25,458 nucleotides of DNA from a virus, in the IMG/VR virus record IMGVR_UViG_3300006919_000392, positions 1-25,458 of that record. One strand, 5' to 3'. Both the position numbers and the translations under genes were made by a program. A model generated the notes under the pieces. The model worked only from the letters and a program-made list of their open reading frames with translations, was not told where the DNA came from and made no database searches. Each line of letters starts with the position of its first letter. Position 1 is the stretch's first letter. Shown piece by piece: positions 2,364-18,104 of the stretch.

Positions 2364-4129
2364 TACAACTAAAGAATATTACACTAAGAAATTTTTTAAG
2401 TGTTGGGTCGGTCACACAAGCAATCGACCTGCACAACCAAGAACTTACCCTTATATTAGGTGAGAACTTAGACTTAGGTGGAGACGGTGCAAGAAACGGC
2501 ACAGGTAAAACTACACTAATTCAAGCCATTAGTTATGCACTATATGGTACTGCCTTAAACAACATCAAACAAAACAATCTTATTAATAGAACTAACGGTA
2601 AAGGCATGTTAGTGACATTAGATTTTGTTGTTAACGGTATAGAATATCGTATTGAACGTGGTCGTAAACCACACAGTTTAAAATTCTTTATTAATGGTCA
2701 CAATAACGAAGAAGATAATGAAGCCCAAGGTGAAAACAAAGAAACACAGGGTGTTATAGACAAGATTATTAATATTTCTCCTACAATGTTTAGAAACATT
2801 GTAGCACTAAACACATATAGTCAACCATTCTTAAGCATGACTCAAGGACAACAGCGTGATGTTATTGAGCAGTTGTTGGGTATTACATTATTGTCTGAAA
2901 AAGCAGAACAAATTAAGATTAAAATTAAAGCAAATAAAGAAGATTTGCAACAAGAAGAATTTAAAATCAAAGCCATAGAAGAAGCAAACAAAAGAATACA
3001 TGAACAAATTGATTCTTTAGTTAAACGTGCTAAACTATGGGATGCCAAGAAAAATGAAGATATTTTAAAGTTAAAAGAAGAACTAGAAGTACTCAAAACT
3101 TTGGATATTGAAGCCGAATTACTTGGCCACAAAGAACTTAGTACATACAATCAACGTAAGAAAGAACACGAAGATATCGATAAAACGATGCAAAGAACTA
3201 GGTCAGATTTAGATAAAGAATCTAAATCTGTTACTAAATTAGAAAAAGAAATTGAGACATTACGTACTAATAAATGTTATGCTTGTGGTCAAGATTTCCA
3301 CGATGATAGTCATGCTAACATATTGGTAGACAAAGAAAAATTACTAGAAGAAGCCAATGAACGCACAGTTGATTTAGCAGAATTTTATGTCGAATGTGAA
3401 AAAGAAAAAGAAAAGATCGGGGATATCGGGTCTTTGCCAAAACTATATTATGATACAGAACAAGAAGCCTTTGAACATAGAAATAAAGTAGATAATTTAT
3501 TACAACAAATCGATCAAAGAGAGAATGATACGAATCCGTATACAGATCAAATCGAAGATATGCAATCACAGGCGTTACAAGAAGTTAATTTTGATAAAAT
3601 AAACGAATTATCACGCATTGGTGATCATCAAAAATTCTTATTGGACTTGTTAACAAGTAAAGATTCATTTGTGCGTAAAAAGATTATTGATCAAAACTTA
3701 TCTTATCTAAATGGTAGGCTTACACATTACTTAGATAAGATGGGTCTACCACATCAAGTTGTATTCTTAAATGATTTGAGTGTAGAAATTACAGAGTTAG
3801 GCAGAGAACTAGACTTTGATAACTTGTCAAGAGGTGAGCGAAATAGACTGATCTTAGGATTGTCATTTGCATTCAGAGACGTGTGGGAAAACTTATATTT
3901 CCCAATCAATACTTTGTTTATTGACGAGTTAATTGACTCTGGTTTAGATACTATCGGTGTTGAGAATGCTATGGCTATTCTTAAAGATATGTCACGTAGA
4001 CGTAACAAGTCAATTTGGCTTGTATCTCACAGAGAAGAACTTGCAGGTCGTGTTCCAAGTGTTTTGCAAGTTGTTAAAGAAAACGGGTTTACTACATATA
4101 ACACTTCTAGGGAAATGGAACACTTATGA
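2360..4129 (+). CDS. 46: Recombination endonuclease subunit gp46 (Rad50/SbcC family)
   Basis: This is the SMC-like ATPase partner of gp47. The Walker A motif GARNGTGKTT is at residues 43-52. Two long coiled-coil arms flank a zinc hook CYAC with C306 and C309, followed by GQD. The ABC signature LSRGERNR starts at L489 and Walker B TLFIDELID includes D522-E523. The length of 589 residues is close to T4 gp46. It overlaps gp47 by four bases upstream and the radical SAM gene by four bases downstream, forming a tight three-gene unit. Together with gp47 it would resect DNA ends in the infected cell. Confidence 0.96.
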   Translation: MIQLKNITLRNFLSVGSVTQAIDLHNQELTLILGENLDLGGDGARNGTGKTTLIQAISYALYGTALNNIKQNNLINRTNGKGMLVTLDFVVNGIEYRIERGRKPHSLKFFINGHNNEEDNEAQGENKETQGVIDKIINISPTMFRNIVALNTYSQPFLSMTQGQQRDVIEQLLGITLLSEKAEQIKIKIKANKEDLQQEEFKIKAIEEANKRIHEQIDSLVKRAKLWDAKKNEDILKLKEELEVLKTLDIEAELLGHKELSTYNQRKKEHEDIDKTMQRTRSDLDKESKSVTKLEKEIETLRTNKCYACGQDFHDDSHANILVDKEKLLEEANERTVDLAEFYVECEKEKEKIGDIGSLPKLYYDTEQEAFEHRNKVDNLLQQIDQRENDTNPYTDQIEDMQSQALQEVNFDKINELSRIGDHQKFLLDLLTSKDSFVRKKIIDQNLSYLNGRLTHYLDKMGLPHQVVFLNDLSVEITELGRELDFDNLSRGERNRLILGLSFAFRDVWENLYFPINTLFIDELIDSGLDTIGVENAMAILKDMSRRRNKSIWLVSHREELAGRVPSVLQVVKENGFTTYNTSREMEHL

Positions 4130-5156: not shown

Positions 5157-5738
5157 ATGCCATCACCATCTAAGAATAAAGGATCAGGATTTGAAAGAGA
5201 AGTTGCAAAATTTCTTAGTGATCTTTATGGAGAAAGTTTCATAAGGGCGCCCGGATCTGGTGCTTATGTCGGTGGCAAAAACCAAAATCGAACAGAGATT
5301 TTACACGAAGGACAGATCAGAAGTTTTAAGGGAGACATTGTTCCTGGACAAAGTTTTGATGCACTAAACATTGAGTGTAAATTCTATGCAGATTTCCCTT
5401 TTCATCAAGTTCTGTCAGGTTCTTGCAGACAACTTGAAGAATGGCTCGACCAGTTAATGGACGTGCATGAAGAGGGAGACTTTGACGTTCTCTTTATGAA
5501 ATTTAATCGTAAGGGGCGTTTTGTATGTGTGCCTAGTCGGTACACATTTGTAAGTGATCAATTCATGTACTATACCTCAGACAACCATGCTGACTGGGTT
5601 ATATTCAGTTTTGATCACTTTTTTGAATTTAACAAAGAACTATTTAAATCATACTCAAATAAAAGCACAGCAGACACCACGTCAAACGAAGCCGACACCA
5701 AGTCTATCTCAATAAAAACTACACCAGTAGATTATTAA
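5157..5738 (+). CDS. PD-(D/E)XK nuclease, Holliday-junction-resolvase-like
   Basis: The N-terminal KGSGFEREVAKFL with E13 and E15, then D60 in FKGDIVP and E73-C-K75 in LNIECKFY, spell the PD-(D/E)XK nuclease core in the order seen in archaeal Hjc-type resolvases. The final 35 or so residues are Ser/Thr-rich and probably disordered. A GGGAG ribosome site lies just after the previous stop. The gene follows gp47, gp46 and the radical SAM gene. In T4 a resolvase (gp49, endonuclease VII, an unrelated fold) trims branched DNA before packaging, so this enzyme may fill that place. That replacement is inference; the fold assignment is fairly firm. Confidence 0.75.
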   Translation: MPSPSKNKGSGFEREVAKFLSDLYGESFIRAPGSGAYVGGKNQNRTEILHEGQIRSFKGDIVPGQSFDALNIECKFYADFPFHQVLSGSCRQLEEWLDQLMDVHEEGDFDVLFMKFNRKGRFVCVPSRYTFVSDQFMYYTSDNHADWVIFSFDHFFEFNKELFKSYSNKSTADTTSNEADTKSISIKTTPVDY

Positions 5739-5754
5739 AACTTACATATAGTAT

Positions 5755-6196
5755 GGTCGTAATTTGTACTCGACCCTTCTTGAGGAACCCTATACGGGTA
5801 ACGGATCTGAAGTAGTGTGTTACACACAATATACCGAGGAGGCAATCGTTATGGTAGCGAACCTTCAATGAGTCTATATCTACTTTGTCTTGAGGATATA
5901 GAACATGCGTTGCTGAGAGATCATGTTTATTAATATGATTGGCTCAACTACAGCCCAGTAAACTTTACAGAGCAACCGGTAGCGATTGATTATAGTAACG
6001 TAATCAATCGGGGACAGACAACATGGATGACAGGGGGTAATGACCTGAACCGTGGTAGTGTTTGAATAGCACTACCATGGCTTCTAAAAGGTAATAAGAC
6101 TTCTTAAAGAACTGTTTAACACTGTATCCTAATAATATACCAAAAAGAAATTACGAATGAGCGAAGCGAATGAGTAATTAGGTCTCTTTAGAGACC
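5755..6196 (+). ncRNA. Candidate large structured RNA (no known family recognised)
   Basis: No gene-sized reading frame covers this stretch, yet it is crowded with perfect hairpins: GGTCG/CGACC (5755-5775), ACCC/GGGT (5787-5799), GTGTG/CACAC (5815-5827), TCTATATC/GATATAGA (5873-5902), AACATG/CATGTT (5902-5927), GGCT/AGCC (5941-5955), a 10-bp stem CGATTGATTA/TAATCAATCG (5983-6010), an 11-bp stem with one G-U pair (6050-6080), AATTAC/GTAATT (6149-6179) and GGTCTC/GAGACC (6181-6196). Two short motifs recur: TCTTGAGGA (5778, 5888) and GGTAGCGA (5853, 5978). It lies between convergent genes, so it is not an mRNA leader. The plus strand is assumed because the single G-U pair and the possible -10 box TATAGT (5747-5752) fit it. 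I did not recognise tRNA, tmRNA, RNase P or group I intron core motifs. Confidence 0.6.
6181..6196. terminator. Hairpin between convergent transcripts
   Basis: GGTCTC TTTA GAGACC forms a perfect 6-bp stem. It sits at the end of the structured region and 20 bases past the gp51 stop, so it may end transcripts from both sides. Neither strand has a proper T run after the stem, so it may instead be only the last helix of the RNA. Confidence 0.35.
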
Positions 6197-6216
6197 TCTT
6201 AATGAAATAATAAGAT

Positions 6217-6498
6217 TTAAAAGAATGGTAATTGGGTTTTCTTAGTTGTTTCCAAGTGATCTTCTATTAGTTTATTTATGGATTCTCTTTCATGTTGAGA
6301 CATGTTAAGGATATCTTCATAGGTAGCACCGCCACGCATATACCAGGACATAGTCAGAGCATTGGCTCTGATCGCCCTGACTTGTTCTTCATATCCTTTT
6401 AGTAACTTCCTAATCCCCTCAGGGTCGAGAGAAAGAAGCCTTACACGAAAAAATCTGAAGCGTTTAGTGTGAAAGGTTGCTCGTATTGATGTTGACAT
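6217..6498 (-). CDS. 51: Baseplate hub assembly protein gp51-like, probably made as a gp26-gp51 frameshift fusion
   Basis: The conserved part is YEEQVRAIRANALTMSWYMRGG followed by YEDILNMSQHERESINKLIEDH, which resembles gp51 of T4-like phages and, more loosely, the C-terminal half of frameshifted tail-assembly chaperones. T4 has gene 51 directly after gene 26, as here. The frame overlaps gp26 by 58 bases. The only upstream ATG (6498) lies inside gp26 with a poor ribosome site, and no ATG follows until the conserved MSWYMRGG. The frame is -1 relative to gp26 and passes through a slippery T TTT TTC. I infer that the main product is the fusion, with about 76 gp51 residues added after gp26 residue 276. 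Confidence 0.72.
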   Translation of the reverse strand: MSTSIRATFHTKRFRFFRVRLLSLDPEGIRKLLKGYEEQVRAIRANALTMSWYMRGGATYEDILNMSQHERESINKLIEDHLETTKKTQLPFF

Positions 6499-7274
6499 TC
6501 TTCACAAGTAATTTGTAGAGGCTTTATAGTGCTATCTGCTTTAATCTTGCTATGCCAATCTCTGATAGATTCATAAGTTTTAGTATCACAATTAGACAAG
6601 AAATCTTCAATATATTCAGGTTCTGTTACTTGTGCTGTGGGAGTTTCTACATATGCTATAGCCAATGCCAATACTTTCATTGTTAATGCAGTAATTTCTT
6701 TTAATGCAGATTGGCTCATTTTCATACGTTCATCAGGGTCTTTGATATCAGGCATGTTTTTGTATTTTGCTTGAATTTCAAATTGACCTAGACCTGCAAT
6801 ATTCATTTCTTTATACTTAAGTGGCTTAAATTTGATTTTTAGATCACCTAATTCTAGCAACGTATCATAGTCCCCTGGTTGAAGAGATCCTAATAGCATT
6901 TGCATGTTTACGCCATATGTTCCTAATGCGTTGCATTTAGTGCATTCAGATTCTACATCAATAGTATCTTGTCCACCTGCCGCTTTAATAGAAATAAGAA
7001 CAGTATCTAAATCATTACTCAACAGTTCCCACGGGTCTTTAATTGCTGGAATACAACTTCTAATGATTTCTACCATAGCCTCACCGTTAAACAATGAATC
7101 AGGTGTTTTAGTAGTAATTTCATCAATAGCAGTCATTGGATAAACGGGTAGTTCTCCTGATTCTGTCTTTTCGATAATATCATCAGGATAATTTTCAACC
7201 CCTGATGGTAACTTAATAAAAACAGCAGGTCTTCTAAAGTACTGTCTTAAGGGATTGTTATCAATTGTGGCCAT
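6441..7274 (-). CDS. 26: Baseplate hub / tail assembly protein gp26-like
   Basis: The 277-residue protein begins MATIDNNPLRQYFRRPAVFIKLPSG and resembles the gp26 baseplate protein family of T4-like phages. It has two paired-cysteine sites, ECTKC near residue 112 and CEEC near residue 258, which could bind zinc. A GAGGAA ribosome site stands six bases before the ATG. The gene is transcribed away from the large tape-measure candidate, and its late promoter would be CTAAATAC on the minus strand at 7336-7329. The last codons before the stop, GAT TTT TTC GTG TAA, contain a -1 slippery heptamer leading into gp51. By analogy with G/GT of lambda-like phages, the pair may act as tail-assembly chaperones; this is inference. 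Confidence 0.78.
   Translation of the reverse strand: MATIDNNPLRQYFRRPAVFIKLPSGVENYPDDIIEKTESGELPVYPMTAIDEITTKTPDSLFNGEAMVEIIRSCIPAIKDPWELLSNDLDTVLISIKAAGGQDTIDVESECTKCNALGTYGVNMQMLLGSLQPGDYDTLLELGDLKIKFKPLKYKEMNIAGLGQFEIQAKYKNMPDIKDPDERMKMSQSALKEITALTMKVLALAIAYVETPTAQVTEPEYIEDFLSNCDTKTYESIRDWHSKIKADSTIKPLQITCEECQHQYEQPFTLNASDFFV
6447..6453 (-). promoter_or_regulatory. Candidate -1 ribosomal frameshift site T TTT TTC
   Basis: Read on the minus strand, 6453 to 6447 is T TTT TTC in the gp26 frame, a textbook X XXY YYZ heptamer placed two codons before the gp26 stop. Slipping back one base gives TTT TTT CGT GTA AGG, which continues into gp51. A short CCCT/GGGG pairing lies downstream but no strong stimulatory structure is obvious. 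The predicted fusion has about 352 residues. Confidence 0.65.
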
Positions 7275-15983: not shown

Positions 15984-17183
15984 ATGTCACAAGTACTCTT
16001 AGAAAGCCGTTGGGACGAGACCAAAGACGCCCTGTTAGAAGGCTTAAAAGGTAATCGCCGCTCAACAATGGGTGTAATCCTTGAAAACACCCGCAAGAGT
16101 CTCTTAAACGAGAACGCTACCGCTGGTAGCACCTCTGCAGGAAACATTGCTACACTTAACCGTGTGATTCTTCCAGTAATCCGTCGTGTTATGCCAACTG
16201 TTATCGCTAACGAACTCGTTGGTGTACAGCCCATGACCGGCCCTGTTGGACAAATCCACACATTACGTGTACGTTATGCTCAGTCTTTGACTGACAATTC
16301 AGCAGCCGCTACTTCTGTAACTGCTGGTGAAGAAGCATTATCACCATTCAAAATTGCACAGGCTTACTCACGTACAGCCCAAGCAACTGCGACTGCAAAC
16401 TCCTATACTGGTGCTGATACAGCAACTTTAGAAGGAAACGGTGGTAAGCAAATCAGTGTGCAAATCTTACGTCAGGCTGTAGAAGCCAAATCACGTAAGT
16501 TGCAAGCACGTTGGACATTTGAAGCCGCTCAGGACGCTCAGTCTCAGCATGGTATCGATGTAGAAGCAGAAATTATGGCTGCTCTTGCACAAGAAATCAC
16601 TGCTGAAATTGACCAAGAGATTCTTTTATCTCTACGTACCTTGGCAGCAACTGAGTTCACATACAACCAGGCAACAGTTTCTGGTACAGCAACATACGTT
16701 GGTGATGAGCATGCCGCTTTAGCAGTTCTTATCAACAGAGTTGCAAACTTAATCGCACAGAGAACACGTAGAGGCGCAGGTAACTGGGCTGTTGTGTCTT
16801 CTGCCGCATTAACTGTACTACAATCTGCTACTACATCAGCATTTGCACGTACAACAGAAGGTACATTTGAAGCACCTACAAACACTAAGTTTGTTGGTAC
16901 ATTAAATGGCTCTATGCGTGTATTCGTTGACTCTTATGCTCCTGACACTCAAGCAGTGTTAGTTGGTTATAAGGGTTCTTCTGAAACTGATGCAGCCGCT
17001 TTCTACTGCCCATATATTCCATTAATGAGCAGTGGTGTTGTACTAGATCCATCAACATTCGAACCAGTCGTATCATTTATGACCAGATACGGTTATGTCG
17101 AATTAACAAACACTGCGTCATCGTTCGGTAACGCGGCTGACTACGTTGGTGAGATCGCAGTTCAAAACTTAACTTTCCAATAA
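15984..17183 (+). CDS. 23: Major capsid protein gp23
   Basis: This is the hexamer-forming head protein. The family hallmark is VIRRVMPTVIANELVGVQPM followed by TGPVGQIHTLRVRY, and the C-terminal VVSFMTRYGYVELTN also fits. The length of 399 residues is short for the family (T4 about 521). The likely gp21 cut is after E43 in LLNE, an L-x-E site just before the Gly/Ser/Thr segment that precedes the conserved core. This gives a propeptide of about 43 residues against 65 in T4. A strong AGGAG ribosome site precedes the ATG and a strong terminator follows the gene, as befits a very highly expressed product. Confidence 0.97.
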   Translation: MSQVLLESRWDETKDALLEGLKGNRRSTMGVILENTRKSLLNENATAGSTSAGNIATLNRVILPVIRRVMPTVIANELVGVQPMTGPVGQIHTLRVRYAQSLTDNSAAATSVTAGEEALSPFKIAQAYSRTAQATATANSYTGADTATLEGNGGKQISVQILRQAVEAKSRKLQARWTFEAAQDAQSQHGIDVEAEIMAALAQEITAEIDQEILLSLRTLAATEFTYNQATVSGTATYVGDEHAALAVLINRVANLIAQRTRRGAGNWAVVSSAALTVLQSATTSAFARTTEGTFEAPTNTKFVGTLNGSMRVFVDSYAPDTQAVLVGYKGSSETDAAAFYCPYIPLMSSGVVLDPSTFEPVVSFMTRYGYVELTNTASSFGNAADYVGEIAVQNLTFQ

Positions 17184-17229
17184 GCCGATTATCGTCTTAC
17201 GAAAGTAACGAGTTAATAACTCACAACCT

Positions 17230-17258
17230 GGGAGAGTCTTTTGACTCTCCCTTTTTTT
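17230..17258 (+). terminator. Strong intrinsic terminator after gp23
   Basis: GGGAGAGTC (17230-17238) pairs perfectly with GACTCTCCC (17243-17251) across a TTTT loop and is followed by seven T residues. It closes the head gene block 47 bases after the capsid stop. Confidence 0.95.
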
Positions 17259-17285
17259 ATGGGCAACCAAATACTCATTAAATAC

Positions 17286-17314
17286 TTGACACAGCCTTAA
17301 ATGAATGTTATTAT
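17286..17314 (+). promoter_or_regulatory. Sigma-70-like promoter after the capsid terminator
   Basis: A perfect TTGACA (17286-17291) and TATTAT (17309-17314, 5/6) are 17 bases apart, 28 bases before the next ATG. This host-type promoter sets the following three genes apart from the late capsid unit and suggests earlier expression. Confidence 0.75.
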
Positions 17315-17342
17315 ATGAACATTAATACTATAAGAGGAAGTT

Positions 17343-18104
17343 ATGGCAAAATATAGAATATTTGGTGGCAGATACGGTGGAGAAGTTGCGATAGGCAAAG
17401 TCTCACACGAATTTGCTGAATATTGGGCTCCTAGAATCGAAGACGAAGGAGATAGTGACTGTATCGAATTTGTCACTAGTGTTGAATGGGACGATGAGCC
17501 TTCAGACACAGAATCGCCTGCAATGACACTAGAAGGAAATAGACCTTGGTATGAACTAGACGATATCGAACATATCAATAGTTACAGTGCTGACGGTGGG
17601 TTTAGAGTCGTAAAAGTCGATGATGATGACAAAGAAGATTGGGATACTGAAGTTGAGATAGAAGGCCATCACCAATTATACGGCAGAGAAGCATACCATG
17701 ATGTAGAGTTTCCTGAACCTACCGAATACATAACTGAAGAAGATATAGAAAACTATGTTCCAGTTATGACTTTTCACAGTTTTGAGAAAGGTCAGTTTGG
17801 TACGTGGGAAGTTGAAATTGATGGAGAGTTTGATCCAGACAAATTTGCTTATAGCATTGTAGAAACAATGGTTGGTGAATTTGTAGATAAAGTATTCTAT
17901 GACAAAAAAGAATTAGAACAAAATTTTGATTGGGCAGACTCAACTGGCAAAGGTTATTATGCTAAAGTTGGTTGGATGAATCCTAAATACCATGACAAAA
18001 GTGAAGTGTACACAGATGAATATCTAGTTGACAACGGCTTTTGGGAAGATTTAGAAGATTCAATTGCTTATGATAAAGAACAAGCAGAGGAAAATAATGA
18101 CTGA
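17343..18104 (+). CDS. Acidic protein of unknown function
   Basis: The 253-residue protein begins MAKYRIFGGRYGGEVAIGKV and is rich in Asp, Glu, Tyr and Trp throughout, with no signal peptide or membrane segment. A repeated style of short beta-prone blocks (for example FEKGQFGTWEVEIDGEFDPD) suggests a soluble beta-rich fold. I do not recognise a named family, though similar openings occur in other marine T4-like phages as far as I remember. A GAGGA ribosome site and a sigma-70-like promoter stand directly upstream, and a terminator separates it from gp23. Expression before the late stage is likely. An acidic early protein could act on host proteins, but nothing in the sequence proves this. Confidence 0.75.
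   Translation: MAKYRIFGGRYGGEVAIGKVSHEFAEYWAPRIEDEGDSDCIEFVTSVEWDDEPSDTESPAMTLEGNRPWYELDDIEHINSYSADGGFRVVKVDDDDKEDWDTEVEIEGHHQLYGREAYHDVEFPEPTEYITEEDIENYVPVMTFHSFEKGQFGTWEVEIDGEFDPDKFAYSIVETMVGEFVDKVFYDKKELEQNFDWADSTGKGYYAKVGWMNPKYHDKSEVYTDEYLVDNGFWEDLEDSIAYDKEQAEENND

Follow-up and report, generated by a model that had tools for sequence, protein, structure and literature searches.

Genomic context of the intergenic region

The window, that is, the whole stretch of 25,458 nucleotides analyzed here, represents about 25 kb from the genome of a T4-like phage whose portal protein is nearest to those of the jumbo phages Phosso, Atu_ph07 and PA5oct (49–55% at the amino acid level). Genes for the late sigma factor gp55, gp47, gp46, a radical SAM protein and a PDDEXK/RusA-like nuclease are followed by a gap, and 3′ of the gap by convergent baseplate genes, a tape-measure-like protein, the portal, the prohead protease and gp23. 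The nuclease gene (PDDEXK_15 or RusA-like, D14-type; phrog_244, PF24608) occupies 5157–5738 on the plus strand and faces, on the minus strand, a gene for a small protein of unknown family (93 aa; 6217–6498), homologs of which occur at the same place, and the T4 baseplate hub gene (6441–7274; PF12322, phrog_150). The gene-free gap reported in a preliminary description of this DNA is real and reaches from the end of the nuclease gene at 5738 to that of the small convergent gene at 6217. The 93-aa protein overlaps the hub gene, is conserved together with the RNA described below and has no Pfam or PHROG match.

The 478-nt interval between these genes (5739–6216) was more stable than its dinucleotide shuffles on both strands (z = −4.0 on the plus and −3.0 on the minus strand), and the three stems named previously at 5873–5902, 5983–6010 and 6050–6080 are present there and correspond to P3, P5 and H6 below. 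On the other hand, the statement that the stem density was unlike the rest of the window was not supported: in MFE z-scores of 230-nt windows, 17039–17498 was lower (−5.2 and −4.1) than the interval (−3.3). Folding energy alone does not single the interval out in the window, and the case depends on comparison. The strongest structure anywhere in the window, by MFE z-score, is an intrinsic terminator, a strong one, after gp23 (17229–17262, GGGAGAGUC-UUUU-GACUCUCCC-UUUUUUU), on the 3′ side of which lies a sigma70-like promoter, TTGACA-17-TATTAT, at about 17287–17316.

Homologs and their distribution

A scan with the nuclease protein yielded 80 loci, 77 of them with a complete interval (mostly 420–560 nt), and nearly all matched the RNA by blastn. 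In a second scan with a single 19-base pattern from the RNA, all 119 viral stretches matched carried the family as judged by nhmmer, some of them cut by a contig end; the homologs were thus found without using structure. Altogether the RNA was present in 181 fetched loci, which represent 113 unique sequences, or 97 after collapse at 97% identity, and at least a hundred related uncultured phages from water hold it at the same place and in the same pseudoknotted shape. The PDDEXK nuclease lay upstream in 178 of the 179 loci with room for it, and the convergent baseplate hub gene downstream in 164 of 164, although some contigs were counted twice because the loci of the two scans overlap. The RNA starts within approximately 0–40 nt of the nuclease stop codon, and the order of the genes hardly varies; the 5′ hairpins of the RNA lie inside the nuclease gene, near its 3′ terminus. 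Six contigs of 230–525 kb carried it once per genome, solely at this site, as judged by the H0 motif (see below). The phage had been considered compact, which is not so, since homologs were located on contigs of up to 525 kb belonging to marine and other jumbo T4-like phages.

Outside this group, three more distant hub relatives (L003–L005) lacked the RNA, and in L003 and L005 other genes were seen at that place. No homolog was found among cultured phages by blastn with this RNA and that of locus L071 as queries, and SCTP-2, Paride, Phosso and F336 gave no convincing match when searched with the model. A 13.8-bit match in Atu_ph07 was rejected because it lies within a coding gene and misses most helices, and a weak 9.4-bit model match in L214 was regarded as chance. 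A one-pattern scan of GTDB genomes returned 11 chance matches, none of them homologous by nhmmer. As it is lacking in the three distant hub relatives and no convincing match was found in five cultured jumbo or related phages, the RNA marks one clade. As a separate observation, hub and nuclease are separated in Pseudomonas phage Paride (L088) by about 1.5 kb (2479–3991) with only tiny annotated ORFs, which might hide another RNA; model R1 (see below) gives no match there.

A conserved pseudoknotted core

An initial model was built with RNAalifold on an alignment of the 97 sequences, and its helices were found again, along with two pseudoknots, by a helix search that was blind to the model. The resulting core (model R1; 5828–6030, plus strand; 166 bits, E = 1e-55) is supported by pair counts and by a tree-aware test. 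On the plus strand it comprises P1 (5832–5836/5977–5981), P2 (5838–5842/5862–5866), P3 (5873–5880/5895–5902, with an outer part at 5868–5870/5904–5906), P4 (5909–5913/5972–5976), a P4b hairpin at about 5915–5945 and P5 (5983–5992/6001–6010). In PK1, the strand TTGTCT in the P3 loop (5885–5890) pairs with AGACAA (6016–6021); both-side changes occurred in six of its seven pairs, and it was significant under the tree-aware null. In PK2, CCC (5954–5956) pairs with GGG (6011–6013); this helix was recovered without prior structure, was 98.6% paired and showed both-side changes at all four consensus pairs, and its pairs remained individually below significance because they are too conserved.

In a second alignment (A1), the nine core helices, including the two pseudoknots, were 91.5% paired, compared with 77.2% in column shuffles and 33–44% when slid, and compensatory double changes were present in 46 of the 57 pairs of the named structure. 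The covariation score of the nine helices was 0.429, against 0.168 after shuffling. A covariation analysis had been proposed in the preliminary description, and our own versions of the R-scape approach did reveal covarying pairs among the homologs. When all column pairs were compared with sequences simulated along the tree under no structural constraint, 21 pairs reached E ≤ 0.05 (15 in predicted helices, three adjacent, one in PK1 and two unexplained). Under a stricter null that kept both the tree and the column rates, 12 of 19,110 column pairs were significant: nine were in the named structure, two formed the outer P3 extension and one was a diagonal neighbour. Eleven of the 12 fit the structure, PK1 included. 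G-U pairs exceeded A-C pairs among the homologs (245 vs 96), so the plus strand is favored. The core was rigid across the homolog alignments and the flanking hairpins were variable; the model may miss pairings of some conserved segments. Chance folding or a repeat artefact, which the unexceptional MFE within the window would by itself permit, is refuted by this covariation and by conservation over 97 sequences, and we give it practically no weight. It is almost certain that the interval holds a conserved structured RNA.

Two repeated short motifs had also been reported. Both copies of GGTAGCGA, one in the P2 loop region and the other at the P1/P5 junction, are conserved, each for its own reasons. 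The first copy of TCTTGAGGA turned out to be peculiar to this phage, since 96 of 97 homologs have CTCC instead of CTTC there.

The 3′ arm

Downstream of the core, the H6 hairpin (GGTAGTG/CACTACC, 6050–6080, plus strand), followed by a conserved ATGGCT, was almost invariant across the 97 homologs. Its invariant strand GGTAGTG (within 6053–6077) could alternatively form pairs with (C)ACTAC, a conserved segment of the core at 5946–5951, which suggests a possible switch. H7 (6149–6179, plus strand), which has tandem GA mismatches, was seen in the alignments. The last hairpin, AGGTCTC-TTTA-GAGACCT (6180–6197, plus strand), is supported by covariation (98.2% paired, 140 double-changed cells and two significant covarying pairs) and is likely a terminator, with a weak U tract.

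The 5′ arm and the probable start of the RNA

Upstream of the core on the plus strand are H1 (GGTCG/CGACC, 5755–5775), which has significant covarying pairs (alignment columns 19–27 and 20–26), H2 (5776–5812), defined by homolog comparison, in which the stem CTTC (5776–5779)/GAAG (5809–5812) encloses an inner hairpin, and H3 (5815–5827; 81% paired, 191 double-changed cells, G-U 49 vs A-C 5). The H2 stem is CTCC/GGAG in 96 of 97 homologs and compensatorily CTTC/GAAG in this phage alone; reading its CUCCUU as an anti-Shine-Dalgarno mimic is therefore doubtful.

The preliminary description had placed the structured RNA at 5741–6200. It is indeed there, but extends 5′ into the nuclease gene, where two mini-hairpins are found at 5673–5704 on the plus strand: H0a, GAC[ACCAC]GTC (5673–5683), and H0b, GAC[ACCAA]GTC (5694–5704), the second copy, identified in a hairpin survey of upstream regions. 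The H0 12-mer GACACCNNGTCA mostly lies 42–64 nt 5′ of the model start, in nearly invariant codons. A hairpin with a 3-bp stem and a 5-nt loop was present in 104 of 105 unique upstream regions, compared with 2.35 in shuffles; the pattern was defined after seeing the data, so the compensatory variation of the stem (GAC/GTC, GAG/CTC, GTC/GAC and GGC/GCC) carries more weight than this ratio. H0 is in a different reading frame in L051, and in L181, where the nuclease is absent and replaced by another ORF, it is kept and non-coding. H0 is thus kept independently of the nuclease gene, and on these three grounds the RNA gene most likely starts within the nuclease gene in most members. The ORF found in L181 between the gp46-like gene and the RNA (147 aa; 2156–2599, reverse complement) resembles by eye a GIY-YIG-type endonuclease.

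Because its stem has compensatory changes, H0 was rejected as a promoter box. Hexamers resembling a −10 box were enriched 14–20 nt upstream of H0 in the homologs (35 of 95 at −17), and a weak, inferred −10 box for the RNA might be CATACT at 5650–5655 (plus strand); it remains unproven, since the enrichment overlaps constrained coding sequence. In L181, a clear extended −10 sequence, TGTTATACT, is located 13 nt upstream of H0. Consensus promoter scans beside H1 in the homologs detected no conserved standard promoter.

Such observations bear on two cis or neighbor-linked explanations. Foremost among the rivals is that the RNA acts in cis as a 3′ UTR element: it would form the end of the gp55-47-46-radical SAM-nuclease transcript, and its fold would stabilise this mRNA or shield it from the convergent baseplate transcript. 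This explanation agrees with the short distance to the nuclease stop codon (approximately 0–40 nt), the almost fixed gene order and the lack of a standard promoter beside H1, but a stability element would need far less than a core that is pseudoknotted and contains dozens of invariant bases, and L181 has a different upstream gene and still keeps the RNA and H0 with its own promoter-like sequence; we consider a cis-acting element possible, though rather unlikely. That the RNA guides the neighboring PDDEXK nuclease is suggested only by the nearly constant presence of that neighbor. Hundreds of cultured phages have a nuclease of this family, and the four of them that were searched lack the RNA; L181 retains the RNA although the nuclease is missing there, and no variable guide segment was seen. 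A guide function is hence highly improbable.

Coding potential and search for known RNA families

No conserved ORF was found in the RNA among the homologs, in which the longest ORFs differ in size and strand. A short MASKR-like ORF in the ATGGCT frame after H6 was rejected, as neither its length nor its sequence is conserved. Using cmscan against Rfam, a search that had been suggested for this interval, neither the window nor any of L071, L046 and L181 contained a family at the gathering score, and at E ≤ 10 four homologs gave only inconsistent chance matches, with no GOLLD or ROOL even weakly. Both of these, previously left open as candidates, are now excluded as families. The window and 32 homologous loci (33 sources in all) contained no tRNA. 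The earlier failure to recognize a tRNA, tmRNA, RNase P RNA or group I intron was borne out: neither ARAGORN nor Rfam matched a tmRNA or tRNA (the ATGGCT frame that might have suggested one is unconserved), Rfam gave no RNase P RNA in the window or the homologs searched, and for a group I intron there was no Rfam match and no interrupted gene, the flanking genes being complete. The order of P4, PK2 and P5 recalls a group I-like topology, which was also dismissed for want of a J8/7-like segment, an Rfam match and an interrupted gene.

A ribozyme with a catalytic pseudoknotted core, acting for example in self-processing of the transcript, would fit the compact double-pseudoknot core and its invariant unpaired bases; with no ribozyme family match and no evidence of a cleavage site, and an intron ruled out by the absence of an interrupted gene, we regard it as very unlikely. 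The RNA meets the general criteria for a large structured phage non-coding RNA, being non-coding with a conserved fold backed by covariation. The original reading of an unrecognised large structured RNA is supported, since the homologs covary strongly and Rfam offers no family that reaches its gathering threshold. We did not find it described in open-licence literature; an earlier report elsewhere is possible.

Proposed nature of the RNA

On the basis of current results, we favor a new family of phage non-coding RNA that is independently transcribed and acts in trans, with a probability of roughly 0.5. Its conserved structure, strand, single copy and fixed location are observed; its transcription and function are inferred. 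The RNA gene would be about 500–530 nt on the plus strand, running from ∼5660–5670, just 5′ of H0, to the terminator hairpin at 6197. The predicted fold consists of a 5′ arm (H0–H3), a rigid core and a 3′ arm (H6, H7 and the terminator), in which the core pseudoknots would tie the P3 loop and a P4 strand to sequence 3′ of P5. An independent transcript is likely, although no transcript data are available and the strand bias and terminator hairpin are indirect evidence; against it, the RNA adjoins the nuclease stop codon, so that read-through plus processing is possible.

From the conserved unpaired core bases, the single copy, the near-fixed place and the survival of a change of upstream gene, we infer a trans-acting RNA with a protein partner. 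A protein may bind to a surface formed by the invariant unpaired core stretches AGCGAACC, TGTGCG, ACTACA and ACTTTACAG, with the repeated ACCNN mini-hairpins as another site for protein, and the RNA would serve a core infection step common to the clade, not the regulation of one neighboring gene. The own promoter, the action in trans and the protein binding are all inferred; the weak U tract of the terminator, the lack of an identified protein partner and the lack of a standard promoter at H1 speak against this explanation. There is about an even chance that it represents a new class of large trans-acting RNA that binds a phage or host protein through the core and the ACCNN mini-hairpins and is needed for a central infection step in a widespread uncultured clade of jumbo T4-like phages.

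Comparison with known phage RNAs

Few large structured phage RNAs are known, and we know of no ornate phage RNA with an established function. The RNA described here is unusually well defined by evolution, with a near-fixed neighborhood, a single copy, a constrained core and a structure backed by 97 sequences, and is therefore well suited to structure determination and to finding out for what purposes giant phages use RNA. It also shows that conserved RNA genes, even ones that overlap protein genes, go unnoticed when jumbo phage genomes are annotated.

Like GOLLD, an ornate RNA of phages and prophages, it is large, phage-encoded, structured and of unknown function; unlike GOLLD, it is about 500 nt rather than more than 800 nt, has no Rfam match, is not near tRNAs and is known here from jumbo T4-like phages only. 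With ROOL it shares phage encoding, several pseudoknots and the absence of a known partner protein, and it differs from ROOL in its helices, in having no Rfam match and in not lying near tRNA islands, where GOLLD and ROOL are often found. The T4 species I/II stable RNAs (RNA C and D) are stable non-coding RNAs within the T4 tRNA cluster; our RNA is similarly a non-coding RNA of a T4-type phage, but has no tRNA near. An ornate structural role of the GOLLD or ROOL type, in which many copies form an RNA-only particle during infection, is suggested by a large, phage-encoded, pseudoknotted, single-copy RNA without known protein partner, to which GOLLD and ROOL are nearest in kind (PMC12286853). Its length of about 500 nt, compared with 659 and over 800, the absence of nearby tRNAs in 33 sources and the lack of a family match make such a particle quite unlikely.

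The manA and wcaG RNAs of T4-like cyanophages are conserved structured RNAs (PMC2864571), and wcaG, apparently manA too, has been described as a gene regulator. Our RNA, by contrast, lies between convergent genes with a terminator-like hairpin at its end, and it has no family match. None of the tested families is related to it in sequence or structure; in a broader view, in which it joins GOLLD and ROOL among the large structured phage RNAs of unknown function, only the family would be new, not the kind.
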